Notes under the pieces: model-generated | The model's input: only the letters and a program-made list of their open reading frames with translations | What the model was told of the DNA's origin: nothing | Database searches by the model: none | Assembly (NCBI RefSeq): GCF_001544355.1 | Contig: NZ_BCQI01000022.1 | Span: forward strand, 1-44,778 | Length of the DNA stretch: 44,778 nucleotides | Direction: 5' to 3' | DNA from: Alicyclobacillus acidiphilus NBRC 100859 | Lineage (GTDB): Bacteria > Bacillota > Bacilli > Alicyclobacillales > Alicyclobacillaceae | Part shown: piece by piece, positions 2,837-44,778 of the stretch | How positions within the stretch are numbered: position 1 is the stretch's first letter | How the letters are laid out: each line of letters begins with the position of its first letter | Made by a program: the position numbers and the translations under genes

Positions 2837-2905
2837 TTTTGTGAATGGCGCGATTCGATTGTGCACATATGGATAGCGATCGAGTGAATGGGTGGCAAGG
2901 GGGCC

Positions 2906-2945
2906 GTGTGGGCGTGTGGGCGTGTGGGCGTGTGGGCGTGTGGGC
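2906..2945. repeat. 8-bp tandem repeat, five copies of GTGTGGGC
   Basis: Five exact head-to-tail copies of GTGTGGGC run from 2906 to 2945. They are followed within 2 bp by GGCAAATAAGCGTCC, the first core of the palindromic repeat array. A different tandem repeat at the right end of the window abuts the same core. Confidence 0.95.
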
Positions 2946-3196
2946 GCGGCAAATAAGCGTCCGTGGGACGCTTATTTGTGTCGGTTCGTGTGATTTCAGC
3001 GGAATAGGCGGCCATGTGCCGTTTATTCGGGCGTGATTGGGCCAGATCCGACTGATTCCCGGCAAATAAGCGGCTGTGGGCCGTCTATTTGAGTCGGTTC
3101 GTGTGATTTCAGTGGAATAAGCGGCCGTGGGCTGCTTATTCTGCCGATCTCGCTCGATCTCGGCTTCGATTCCGCTTATTCTGCCGATCTCGCTCA
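2946..3196. repeat. palindromic repeat block, copy 1
   Basis: The block has four hairpins in a row. At 2950-2978 is a perfect 13-bp stem CAAATAAGCGTCC with a GTG loop. At about 3002-3028 is GAATAGGCGGC/GCCGTTTATTC. At about 3063-3092 is CAAATAAGCGGC/GGCCGTCTATTTG. At about 3115-3141 is GAATAAGCGGCC/GGCTGCTTATTC. A half-site (CCGCTTATTC, near 3172) follows. Spacing between hairpin starts is 51, 62 and 52 bp. The linkers are conserved too (GTCGGTTCGTGTGATTTCAG occurs after the first and third hairpins). Short minus-strand frames crossing it switch frame and simply translate the repeat, so it is treated as non-coding. Confidence 0.9.
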
Positions 3197-3313: not shown

Positions 3314-3590
3314 CGCGGCAAATAAGCGTCCGTGGGACGCTTATTTGTGTCGGTTCGTGTGATTTCAGCGGAATAAGCGGCCATGGGCCGTTTATTCGGG
3401 CGTGATTGGGCCAGATCCGACTGATTCCCGGCAAATAAGCGGCTGTGGGCCGTCTATTTGAGTCGGTTCGTGTGATTTCAGTGGAATAAGCGGCTCTGGG
3501 CTGCTTATTCTGCCGATCTCGCCCGATCTCGCTCGATCTCGCTCGACCTCGGCTTCGATTCCGCTTATTCTGCCGATCTCGGCCATGCTG
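3314..3590. repeat. palindromic repeat block, copy 2 (direct repeat at +369 bp)
   Basis: This is a near-identical second copy of the 2946-3196 block, offset by 369 bp. It has the same four hairpins with the same 51/62/52-bp spacing, starting at 3319, 3370, 3432 and 3484. It carries a few substitutions and an expansion of a GATCTCGCTC-type motif near 3520-3550, before the terminal half-site (CCGCTTATTC near 3560). The 117 bp between the two copies hold a degenerate hairpin (around 3255-3280) and more CGATCTCG-like motifs. Members of bacterial intergenic repeat families behave this way; the family is not one I can name. Confidence 0.9.
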
Positions 3591-20203: not shown

Positions 20204-20435
20204 CGATGAAAGCGATGCGGAAGACGAGTATGCCTCACCCCCTTCGTTCAGAGAGGGCGTCACTTGGTGCAAGACGCCTCGAAGGCAAGGCAGAAGCTAC
20301 TTCCAAGCGCGTGATGAACTCACGCCGGGCTGCGCCCGTTACAGCGAAGAGGGACAGCGTGTCCAAACGCGCTGTAACCAGGGTGGTACCGCGGGTGGCT
20401 AATGCCCGTCCCTGACAAGGGGACGGGCATTTTTT
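20204..20435 (+). promoter_or_regulatory. T-box leader of alaS, Ala (GCU) specifier
   Basis: Stem I begins GGAAG (20219-20223), then the AGTA motif. The 3' side reads GAA-GCT-A directly before CTTCC (20300-20304), putting GCT (20296-20298) in the specifier position, an alanine codon. The T-box AGGGTGGTACCGCGG starts at 20380. The terminator is AATGCCCGTCCC (20401-20412) with GGGACGGGCATT (20420-20431) and a T run to 20435. Uncharged tRNA-Ala should promote readthrough into alaS. Confidence 0.92.
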
Positions 20436-20499: not shown

Positions 20500-23139
20500 A
20501 TGAAATCACTTACAGGCCAACAAATTCGCCGTGCGTACAAGGAGTTTTTTGCGGCGCGTGGACATAGTGTGTTTCCCAGTGCGAGCCTGGTGCCGCACGA
20601 CGATCCGACCCTGCTGTGGATCAATGCGGGCATGGCGCCTTTGAAGCCGTATTTCGACGGGCGCGAGATCCCGGAAAACCCGCGCATCGTCGATGCCCAA
20701 AAGTGTATTCGCACGAACGACATCGAAGAAGTCGGGCATACCGCGCGCCATCAAACATTCTTTGAGATGTTGGGCAACTTCTCGTTTGGAGACTACTTCA
20801 AACGTGAAGCCATCACCTGGGCATGGGAGTTTCTCACCGGCGTGCTGGAGATGGAGCCGGAGAAGATTTCCGTCACCATCCACGTCGACGACGAGGAAGC
20901 GTTCGATATCTGGCACCGCGAGGTGGGCCTGCCCAAAGAGCGAATCTACCGCGGAACCGACGACAATTTCTGGGAAATCGGTGAGGGACCGTGCGGGCCT
21001 TGCTCCGAAATTTTTTACGATCGCGGTGAAGCCTTTGGCTGCGGTTCCGACACCTGTCAACCTGGCTGCGATTGCGATCGCTTCCTGGAAATTTGGAACC
21101 TGGTGTTCACGCAGTACAACAAGAACGCCGACGGAGAGTACACGCCGCTGCCGAAGAAGAACATCGACACGGGGTCGGGGCTGGAACGTCTGGCATCGCT
21201 TTTGCAGAACGTTCCGAACAACTTCGAGACGGACCTGTTCAAGCCCATCATCGACAAGACGGGTGAGATTGCCGGCCGGAAGTACGGGGTTTCGGCAGAG
21301 GACGATATTCACTTCAAAATTGTCGCGGACCACTTGCGGACGGTTGCGTTCGCCATCGGCGACGGCGTCCTGCCTGGGAACGAAGGCCGAAGCTACATCA
21401 TTCGGCGCTTGCTTCGCCGGGCGGTGCGCAGTGGACGCCGCCTTGGCATCGAAAATCCGTTCATGTACCGACTCGTCGAAGTCGTGGACCAAATCATGGG
21501 CGACGACTATCCCGAAATTCGCGAGAAGCGGAGCCTCATCGAGCGCGTGGTCAAGACGGAAGAAGAGCGTTTCCACGAGACGTTGAGCGAGGGCGAGGCG
21601 TTGCTGGCGCAGTCGATGAAGGCCCTGAAGGCGGCGGGAACGACGGTCATCTCTGGCGGCGACGCGTTCAAGCTGTACGACACGTATGGTTTTCCCATCG
21701 ATCTCACCGTCGAGATCGCCCACGAGTCCGGTTTCGAGGTGGATCGCGACGGGTTCGAAGCGGAATTGGAAGCGCAGCGGACGCGCGCGCGGCAGGCGCG
21801 GCAAGCGAACGAGGGAATGAGCAGCCAACGCGGCGCGCTGGAAACGCTCACGACCCCGTCCACGTTTGTCGGCTATGGCGAACTTACGGTCGACGCTCAA
21901 ATTGTCGCGATTGTGCAGGATGGCGAGCTGGTGGACGGCGTCGGCGTGGGTCACGAGGCGCAGATTATTCTCGACACGACGCCGTTTTATGCGGAGAGCG
22001 GCGGCCAGGTGGCGGACAAGGGCGAGATCGTCAGCCCCAACGGCCGGGCTGAGGTCGTCGATGTCCGCAAGGCGCCGCATGGACAGCATGTGATGACGAT
22101 TCAGGTGACCGACGGATCGCTGCATACGGGCGAAGAAGTGCGCGCGCACGTCGACGCGGAGAAGCGCAAGGACACGGTGAAGAATCACACGGCCACGCAC
22201 TTGCTGCACAAGGCCTTGCGTCAAGTCCTCGGCACGCATGTCGCTCAGGCGGGCTCGTTGGTGGAGCCGGATCGGCTGCGTTTTGACTTCTCTCACTTCG
22301 GCCCGATGACCGAAGACGAGATCGAGCGCGTGGAAGCGCTCGTCAACGAAGACATTTGGAAGGACAGCCACGTGGTCATTCGCGAGATGGATATCGACGA
22401 CGCCAAGGCCTTGGGCGCGATGGCCTTGTTTGGCGAAAAGTACGGCAAGCGAGTCCGGGTCGTCCAAGCGGGTGACAGCATCGAATTGTGCGGCGGCTGC
22501 CACGTGGAACGGACGGGTTTGATTGGCCAGTTCCGAATTGTATCGGAGACGGGCATTGGTAGTGGAACGCGCCGCATCGAAGCGGTGACCGGTCGGCACG
22601 CGTACGAACTTGGCCGCGTCCGCGAAGGCCAACTGCGCCAGATTGGCGACTTGGTGAAAGCGGGACCGGCCAATGTCGTCGACAAGGTGGCGAGAATGCT
22701 CGCCGACATGAGGGTGTTGGAGCGCGAGTTGGAGTCAGCGAAAGCGCGTTTGAACCACGGGCGTGTCGACGAACTGCTCGGCCGGATCGAACATCTGCAC
22801 GGCATTCCGGTCGTCCGAGCCGCGCTGTCGGACATCGATATGGACGGATTGCGGCAATTGGCGGATGAATTGAGAAATCGGTTGACGACTTACATGCTCG
22901 TGCTGGGTTCCGTGCACAATGAGAAAGTCCAATTTGTGGCTGCGATTTCGAAAGATTTACAGGCGAAGGGATTCCACGCCGGCAACATCGTCAAAGAAGT
23001 GGCTCAAATCGCCGGCGGTGGCGGCGGCGGGCGCCCAGACATGGCGCAGGCAGGCGCGCGCGATCCCGGCAAATTGACAGCGGCAATTGAAAAAGTTGAT
23101 GAAATTGTCGCGTCCATCGCAGGAAATGTGCAGGCGTGA
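20500..23139 (+). CDS. alaS: alanyl-tRNA synthetase
   Basis: The 879-residue full-length AlaRS has a class II catalytic core with motif 1 near RGHSVFPSASLVP, motif 2 CIRTNDIEEVGHTARHQTFF and motif 3 GSGLERLASLL. The editing domain has the zinc ligands HTATHLLH (His 563/567) and CGGCH (Cys 664/His 668), which clear Ser- and Gly-tRNA-Ala. The C-terminal DHHA1 domain has its Gly-rich GGGGGGRPDMAQAG. GAGGAGAAT precedes ATG 20500. It is the first gene of a probable operon with ireB, ruvX and mltG. The zinc motif and length are normal for the family. Confidence 0.98.
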   Translation: MKSLTGQQIRRAYKEFFAARGHSVFPSASLVPHDDPTLLWINAGMAPLKPYFDGREIPENPRIVDAQKCIRTNDIEEVGHTARHQTFFEMLGNFSFGDYFKREAITWAWEFLTGVLEMEPEKISVTIHVDDEEAFDIWHREVGLPKERIYRGTDDNFWEIGEGPCGPCSEIFYDRGEAFGCGSDTCQPGCDCDRFLEIWNLVFTQYNKNADGEYTPLPKKNIDTGSGLERLASLLQNVPNNFETDLFKPIIDKTGEIAGRKYGVSAEDDIHFKIVADHLRTVAFAIGDGVLPGNEGRSYIIRRLLRRAVRSGRRLGIENPFMYRLVEVVDQIMGDDYPEIREKRSLIERVVKTEEERFHETLSEGEALLAQSMKALKAAGTTVISGGDAFKLYDTYGFPIDLTVEIAHESGFEVDRDGFEAELEAQRTRARQARQANEGMSSQRGALETLTTPSTFVGYGELTVDAQIVAIVQDGELVDGVGVGHEAQIILDTTPFYAESGGQVADKGEIVSPNGRAEVVDVRKAPHGQHVMTIQVTDGSLHTGEEVRAHVDAEKRKDTVKNHTATHLLHKALRQVLGTHVAQAGSLVEPDRLRFDFSHFGPMTEDEIERVEALVNEDIWKDSHVVIREMDIDDAKALGAMALFGEKYGKRVRVVQAGDSIELCGGCHVERTGLIGQFRIVSETGIGSGTRRIEAVTGRHAYELGRVREGQLRQIGDLVKAGPANVVDKVARMLADMRVLERELESAKARLNHGRVDELLGRIEHLHGIPVVRAALSDIDMDGLRQLADELRNRLTTYMLVLGSVHNEKVQFVAAISKDLQAKGFHAGNIVKEVAQIAGGGGGGRPDMAQAGARDPGKLTAAIEKVDEIVASIAGNVQA

Positions 23140-44692: not shown

Positions 44693-44762
44693 GGAGGCAG
44701 AGGAGGCAGAGGAGGCAGAGGAGGCAGAGGAGGCAGAGGAGGCAGAGGAGGCAGAGGAGGCA
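44693..44762. repeat. 9-bp tandem repeat, seven copies of GGAGGCAGA plus a partial
   Basis: Seven exact copies of GGAGGCAGA run from 44693 to 44755, then a partial GGAGGCA (44756-44762). The minus strand would read as Pro-Pro-Leu repeats, but no start or gene context supports coding. Confidence 0.95.
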
Positions 44763-44773
44763 AATAAGCGTCC
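44759..44773. repeat. third copy of the palindromic repeat core at the window edge
   Basis: GGCAAATAAGCGTCC is identical to the cores at 2948-2962 and 3317-3331 and directly follows a tandem repeat, as at 2948. After this the sequence reads CCAGA and the window ends, so the rest of the hairpin lies outside. Confidence 0.85.
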
Positions 44774-44778
44774 CCAGA

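Follow-up and report, generated by a model that had tools for sequence, protein, structure and literature searches.

Why do two tandem repeats that differ in both unit and period, and that stand 42 kb apart, run into one and the same 15-mer? The question is raised by a 44,778-nucleotide stretch of the Alicyclobacillus acidiphilus NBRC 100859 genome (hereafter the window), which covers the whole of contig NZ_BCQI01000022.1, here called C22. A preliminary description had pointed out the coincidence from the letters of the window, and we found both repeats to be present where it had placed them, as judged from the sequence and from the output of TRF. Five GTGTGGGC units at 2906-2945 are followed by GC and then by the 15-mer, GGCAAATAAGCGTCC, at 2948-2962. 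The array of GGAGGCAGA that starts at 44693 is followed by the same 15-mer at 44759-44773, and its final partial unit, GGAGGCA, overlaps the first four letters of the latter. TRF reported 100% matches for both arrays. A third exact copy of the 15-mer lies at 3317-3331 and carries no array on its left side. When up to three mismatches were allowed, nine matches to the 15-mer were found in the window, compared with a mean of 1.28 and a maximum of 6 in 100 shuffles.

The preliminary description regarded the 15-mer, together with the single palindrome around it, as the core next to which the repeats had formed. This part of the proposal had to be replaced. Exact copies of the 15-mer numbered 14 in the genome (none for the reversed control), and ten of them are inner arms of a larger intergenic element of ~195 bp, which consists of four 25-bp palindromes spaced by 51, 62 and 51 bp. 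We thus rejected the 15-mer as the unit in favour of the four-palindrome element. The other four copies, including the one at 44759 near the contig end, are outer arms, and two of these four bear a flush array. The expectation that further copies would also adjoin tandem repeats is therefore borne out at 2 of 14 copies if counted on the 15-mer, and at 95 of 221 if counted on the edges of the element. The window stops together with the contig, part-way through an element, and the bases beyond this point had been predicted to complete a hairpin. The sole other copy of AAATAAGCGTCCCCAGA among the 307 loci examined (L043) runs on into an imperfect arm, CCCCTAATTTGCC, not GGACGCTTATTT. The features of the window are given in Table 1.

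Table 1. Tandem arrays and element copies in the window
Feature	Position	Strand	Basis
Array of GTGTGGGC units (5.2 copies of period 8) next to element copy 1	2905..2946	+	TRF, sequence
Element copy 1, four palindromes, 195 bp	2949..3143	-	Covariance model, E 5.4e-40 (one of the 29 copies used to build the model)
25-bp palindromes of copy 1	about 2952-2976, 3003-3027, 3065-3089, 3116-3140	-	Spacing 51-62-51
Degenerate CCGATCTCG-type repeats bordering copy 1 on the right, among them a recurring piece of the outer palindrome arm, CTTATTCTGCCGATCTCG; outside the count of 95 arrays	3144..3194	+	Sequence; TRF 3134-3194
Element copy 2, sharing 97.9% core identity with copy 1, left side without array	3318..3512	-	Covariance model, TRF
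Array of CCGATCTCGC units (3.9 copies of period 10) adjoining copy 2 on the right	3513..3551	+	TRF
Array of GGAGGCAGA units (7.8 copies of period 9) leading into copy 3	44693..44762	+	TRF, sequence
Putative element copy 3, first 20 bases, then contig end	44759..44778	+	Inferred from the 15-mer; no model match

The genome to which the window belongs (G000) is a 3.86-Mb draft in 165 contigs and is 99.96% complete. An 11-mer, AATAAGCGNCC, occurs at 240 places in this genome, versus 6 for the reversed control, and forms the arms of 25-bp palindromes that come in fours. Twenty-nine copies of the element align over 198 columns, and a covariance model, with the matches on both strands merged, detected at least 118 distinct elements, which are distributed over 97 sites, with two neighbouring elements at 21 of them. 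The number of elements is a lower bound, as it is based on 150 scored matches out of 1075 candidates, and five of the 118 have a core outside the range of 194-197 bp, some being cut by contig ends. Among the first 100 of the 240 places of the 11-mer, 98 fall in the 118 elements as whole copies, and no split copy was found in these 100. Four strict palindromes are present in 79 elements, and the three spacings in these were 50-52, 61-63 and 51-52 bp, albeit the search model favours fixed spacing, so that expanded copies could be missed. None of the 118 elements overlaps a predicted coding ORF by more than 60 bp, according to a rough prediction in which the neighbouring genes are incomplete in 88 of the 118 cases. 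At least 32 of the 118, among the matches listed, were matched on both strands. The core is roughly its own reverse complement, and the ends of the element are thus inverted (i.e., terminal inverted repeats). Nineteen of the 330 contig ends in G000 have an element within 700 bp, where about nine are expected from a rough estimate, and the end of the window, lying inside a partial element, is one further contig end of this kind. The elements thus seem to contribute to assembly breaks.

Tandem arrays turned out to be common at the edges of this element. With TRF set to periods of 5-30 and scores of at least 40, we found that 95 of 221 edges (43%; 44 left and 51 right) bear an array whose end lies no more than 12 bp from the core. 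From this count, 15 of the 236 edges were excluded for having less than 120 bp of flank, and it includes the edges of local duplicates that are not fully independent. No gap separates the array from the core in 46 of the 95 cases, and the gap is at most 2 bp in 65. Same-side pieces lying 400-520 bp away from the core contained an array in 6 of 214 cases (Fisher's test, P = 4e-26), and dinucleotide-shuffled flanks did so in 3, 6, 6, 5 and 8 of 221 cases in five runs. Among 2000 random 120-bp pieces of the window, 45 held any array and 10 held one ending at the end of the piece. Raising the TRF score to 80 still left 60 of the 221 edges with an array. The periods range from 6 to 24, with 50 of the 95 at 8-11, and the consensus units differ from site to site, save that some of the 95 are rotations of one another in twins. 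Arrays occur on both sides of 18 elements, on the left only of 26, on the right only of 33 and on neither side of 41 (n = 118); left and right arrays occur independently. The original observation is the visible tip of a genome-wide pattern, and the edges of the element are places where tandem repeats arise.

The flanks of the element are also peculiar in composition. Their GC contents are 0.71 and 0.74, against about 0.55, and the GC skew in the nearest 40 bp amounts to +0.42 on the left and -0.31 on the right, disappearing by about 120-160 bp. Since G exceeds C on the left and C exceeds G on the right, the G-rich strand, when read 5' to 3', runs towards the element on both sides. Edges without a detected array are skewed as well, but less strongly (0.34 versus 0.47 in the first 20 bp). 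Two further sequences recur near the core. A left-side module, 19-309 bp from the core, consists of a hairpin, GTAACGGAC-AAAA-GTTCCGTTAC, followed by GGCGGCGCGATCGCGA (for example, at C55:2405, C33:25852 and C17:2804), and the array sits between the module and the core in several copies. Within 350 bp, a 30-base motif of this module was found in 21 of 118 left flanks with up to nine mismatches and in 17 with up to six, and in 0 of 118 right flanks with up to nine. The octamer GCGATCGC, which we take to be HIP1-like, clusters near the core, with 39 occurrences on the left and 23 on the right within 120 bp, versus a few per 40 bp farther out.

Copies of the element that are closely related to one another permit a comparison of array states. 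Among 13 local twin pairs compared (of 21 local pairs), five differ in the number of units within their shared edge DNA: the left arrays of the C9 twins differ by one 7-bp unit, those of C43 by two units of 21 bp and those of C38 by a 16-bp unit, while on the right the C12 twins differ by a single unit of 8 bp, to which the final CGC of the core belongs, and C52 has five copies of GGTCACCCC where its twin has one diverged copy. The two members of the C40 pair are 6 kb apart and have cores that are 95.9% identical; their homology ends, by eye, ~10-14 bp outside the core, and their right arrays are built of different but similar units, CTTCCCCGCCG versus CCTCCCCG. In the C102 copy, a stretch of 10 bp is duplicated at a distance of 3 bp from the core, and this duplication is absent from its sister copies C14 and C1. 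The left array of C4 has four copies of a 23-bp unit, which is mostly in single copy beside its sister C18 (86.6% identical), and the 7-bp repeats to the right of C70 correspond to a single stretch beside its sister C27 (83.7% identical). The dispersed sister pairs compared were 20 of the 50 with a core identity of at least 81.5%, and in most of these pairs the edges are unalignable or bear unrelated arrays; related units, or units in single copy in the sister, were seen in 3 of the 20 pairs (the C40 pair, C18/C4 and C27/C70).

The reading that we favour is that the core as a whole would form an obstacle to replication and that slippage would take place at its borders. The element would spread as the core plus some edge DNA, and replication would pause where it meets the core, whichever side it comes from. 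At the pause, the nascent strand would re-anneal out of register and duplicate the edge DNA in place, after the spread. The obstacle would be the whole core, either through a protein bound to its eight half-sites or through a multi-hairpin fold, and not a single outer hairpin. Slippage may in addition favour units with a G-rich nascent strand, which matches the skew described above; the G-rich polarity would be expected if slippage, as in repeat expansion generally, retains units with a nascent strand able to fold. To the whole of this account, that is, a dispersed non-coding element of 195 bp with its edge DNA duplicated in place by slippage at a whole-core obstacle to replication, we would give an even chance of being correct. 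Slippage beside a palindrome had already been considered in the preliminary description, and its general form gains from the wide occurrence of arrays at element edges and from the differing unit numbers in 5 of the 13 twin pairs compared; its single-hairpin form did not stand, for the reasons that follow.

If the outermost palindrome alone folded in the single-stranded template, it might stall the polymerase and make the flank slip. The close contact of most arrays with the core (65 of 95 within 2 bp) would be expected in this case, and slippage at the base of a hairpin is established in vitro according to passages on deletions in PMC4134008. Nevertheless, the presence of an array was unrelated to the energy of the outer hairpin (mean -8.04 versus -7.56 kcal/mol, P = 0.41), to its number of matched pairs (8.6 in both, P = 0.81) and to the energy of the whole core (P = 0.80), by which a simple dependence on hairpin stability was rejected. 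The inner linkers also border palindromes, yet they are unexpanded in the detected elements. The lack of any dependence on stability and the constant inner spacing indicate that slippage caused by one hairpin is, at the least, incomplete as an explanation: selection may keep the inner spacing constant, or else the border that matters is that of the whole core. We consider the action of the outermost palindrome alone to be improbable.

The arrays might instead be made by transposition itself, with a mobilising enzyme, rather than later replication, copying the end of the element repeatedly. Expansion was indeed observed at no place other than the two outer ends, and the C40 sisters share just about 10-14 bp of edge (by eye), as would suit this scenario; however, twins that stem from local duplication also differ in unit number, and no mobilising enzyme was identified. 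Matches to the Y1 transposase family (PF01797) numbered 0 in G000 and 0 in each of two other genomes, G012 and G019; G015 has four. The absence of a Y1 transposase from the genome speaks against a REP sequence mobilised by a RAYT/IS200 enzyme, a candidate that we rejected on this ground. Overall, an origin of the arrays in transposition has little probability.

Insertion of the element into ready-made G-rich or C-rich minisatellites, for which it would have a preference, could be read from the edges that are GC-rich and skewed even without a detected array, as well as from the unrelated edges of most of the 20 dispersed sister pairs compared. Each target would then need oppositely skewed flanks. 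Random pieces of the window are almost free of arrays (45 of 2000 with any, 10 of 2000 with one at the end), in a few sister elements the units are related or occur singly, and twin copies differ in unit number; the twin and sister comparisons led us to reject insertion into ready-made arrays as the main cause. The preliminary description had put forward insertion next to G-rich runs with subsequent amplification. The edges are indeed G-rich into the core on both sides, and the 3 of 20 sister pairs and the rarity of arrays in random pieces speak against ready-made arrays.

Sites in two relatives of the same genus, G012 (two contigs) and G006 (a draft), bear on ready-made minisatellites as well. 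The two genomes are ~92% identical around one G012 element, and missing from the G006 allele there are the element itself, 87 bp on its left side and 65 bp of C-rich DNA on the right; we set the junction in G006 by eye. The program used for alignment had assigned the short remainder of G006 to another position. The missing C-rich flank bears, though weakly, against insertion into ready-made repeats. In G012, this flank looks repetitive roughly by eye and was not called as an array by TRF, and the empty site thus shows that the flank, not an array, goes with the element. It is possible that the empty allele of G006 arose by deletion. A second site holds two elements in G012 and none in G006, and some C-rich DNA is present there without the element, as insertion into pre-existing C-rich sequence would have it. 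At four orthologous sites of 98.8-99.96% identity, we saw no change beside the element; no array was called there, and for this reason the four sites do not test array growth. A fifth shared site (97.7% identity) lies in a poorly assembled contig end of G006. No clear target duplication was seen in the two occupied/empty comparisons, which are short by-eye alignments with rearranged flanks of 87-92% identity. Overall, ready-made minisatellites are quite improbable as the source of the arrays. Besides, G012 and G006 are 99.8-99.96% identical in some regions (L271/L286, L321/L319 and L322/L318) and 91-94% in others (L310/L313 and L270/L309), as if segments had recently been exchanged. Finally, it is highly improbable that selection maintains the arrays for a function, for instance as a spacer, a terminator or a G-rich structure, in spite of their uniform polarity with G-rich strands into the core on both sides, as 126 of 221 edges have no detected array and the units are constrained neither in sequence nor in length (periods 6-24).

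The element belongs with the dispersed palindromic intergenic repeats, as a variant with four palindromes in a fixed arrangement. It shares with REP, BIME and REPIN sequences the character of a short, palindromic, non-coding intergenic repeat of high copy number and fixed spacing that is often locally duplicated. Unlike single or paired REPs, it has four palindromes at 51-62-51, and unlike RAYT-associated REPs, it resides in a genome without a Y1/RAYT gene and has tandem arrays at its edges. As a small, non-autonomous, dispersed element with inverted ends, it also resembles bacterial MITEs such as bcr1 of Bacillus cereus (compared by description), NEMIS and ERIC, but it differs from them in its internal four-palindrome geometry; the two occupied/empty comparisons gave no clear sign of a target duplication, nor was a partner transposase found. 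The arrays resemble minisatellites (VNTRs) in having head-to-tail units of 6-24 bp, perfect or near-perfect, the number of which differs between some twins within the genome; unlike ordinary minisatellites, dozens of different ones are anchored in one genome to the edges of one dispersed element. The small dispersed repeats of cyanobacteria described by Elhai et al. are reported to be tiny mobile sequences that sometimes lie beside tandem repeats, with a length of 20-odd bp as opposed to ~195 bp for the element.

Slippage at the borders of the whole core would also have a parallel in replication fork barriers (terB/Tus), in that a rearrangement is proposed at the border of a replication obstacle and the element is proposed to serve as a barrier. 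A deletion hot spot at terB was reportedly found by Bierne et al. in 1991. A fork barrier in yeast is reported to induce deletions and duplications (PMC12151478). Among the matches listed from the open-licence PMC literature, neither the titles nor the opening lines of abstracts contained a description of the element or of palindrome-anchored tandem arrays in Alicyclobacillaceae. New minisatellites are rarely caught at the moment of their origin, which makes their birth difficult to study. In the present case, a single genome offers some two hundred edges of one element, 43% of them with an array, and some twin and sister copies show before-and-after states. With edges that have and lack arrays, and with twins and sisters at hand, the birth of repeats, their polarity and their dependence on structure are directly testable.

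Regarding the structure of the core, the hairpins are conserved by compensatory change across three lineages. In an alignment of 19 sequences from these lineages (A2), 78.3% of the cells are paired, and the covariation of 0.200, versus 0.110 in shuffled data, was reached by 0 of 500 shuffles; pairs changed on both sides numbered 20 versus 17.6 in the shuffled data (87 of 500). Within G000, the pairing signal is weaker (88.8% versus 87.5%, 1 of 500 shuffles). RNAalifold, applied to 29 copies from G000, gave a partly different fold in which palindrome 2 pairs with palindrome 4, so that folds other than four local hairpins are also possible. Where G/A positions face T/C positions in 79 elements (orientation A), palindromes 1 and 2 contain 65 G.T against 7 A.C combinations, and palindromes 3 and 4 contain 2 and 4, respectively. 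The excess of G.T hints that one strand folds, or merely reflects old shared alleles. Above the gathering score, Rfam returned 0 matches in 12 element loci from G000 and other genomes and no match at the element in the window, and we rejected a structured RNA family of Rfam as the identity of the element. The only Rfam match in the window is a T-box leader (RF00230, 108 bits) at 20206-20416, upstream of the alanyl-tRNA synthetase gene at 20500-23139. The synthetase shares 82-83% identity with its counterparts in Alicyclobacillus sacchari and A. tengchongensis, in keeping with an Alicyclobacillus host.

The element is patchily distributed among relatives. A first model (R1) matches 5 of 41 genomes, G000 included. 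The 51-62-51 geometry is formed by different palindromes in G012 and G006, and it is kept over 195 gapless columns in G015, a member of another genus; BLAST of one G012 element against the genus returned only short pieces beyond the element itself. A mixed model (R2) gave matches in 17 of 59 genomes of the order (E up to 1e-4) and in 14 of 250 genomes sampled from the class (E up to 1e-6), nine of the 14 belonging to seven other families. We inspected 16 R2 loci, 15 of them outside the family of the window's species and one inside it, with a crude palindrome finder: two have a clear spacing (51, 61, 51 in L323 and 51, 62, 51 in L325), L324 is a 51-51-51 tandem, and the remaining loci are unclear or partial. 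Being defined by spacing more than by sequence, and patchy across lineages, the element provides a handle for tracing a mobilising or binding protein.

No enrichment of arrays could be shown at the edges of the elements sampled from relatives. They occurred at 2 of 34 edges versus 3 of 34 distant pieces in G012 (17 elements), at 5 of 30 versus 6 of 30 in G056 (15 elements) and at 0 of 20 versus 2 of 20 in G015 and G055 together (10 elements), with near and far criteria that differ, since a distant piece was counted if it held any array. Some single arrays in G056 are nonetheless striking, namely eight copies of GATTGAG, nine of GGGTGTCGA and ten of GCAGCGGGCGA. One might envisage, more broadly, a four-palindrome family in Bacilli in which geometry (51-62-51 bp), and not sequence, is conserved and which, as a nucleoprotein or multi-hairpin obstacle, blocks replication forks in both directions, generating minisatellites at both borders with the G-rich strand into the core; taken as a whole, such a scheme seems to us unlikely. 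Another palindrome, of the type GTGTCTTATTAAGACAC, recurs beside or within G012 elements (L277, L278, L283 and L284; by eye), and in G056, a genome of two contigs, one locus (L290) holds five elements in a row at intervals of about 390-415 bp.
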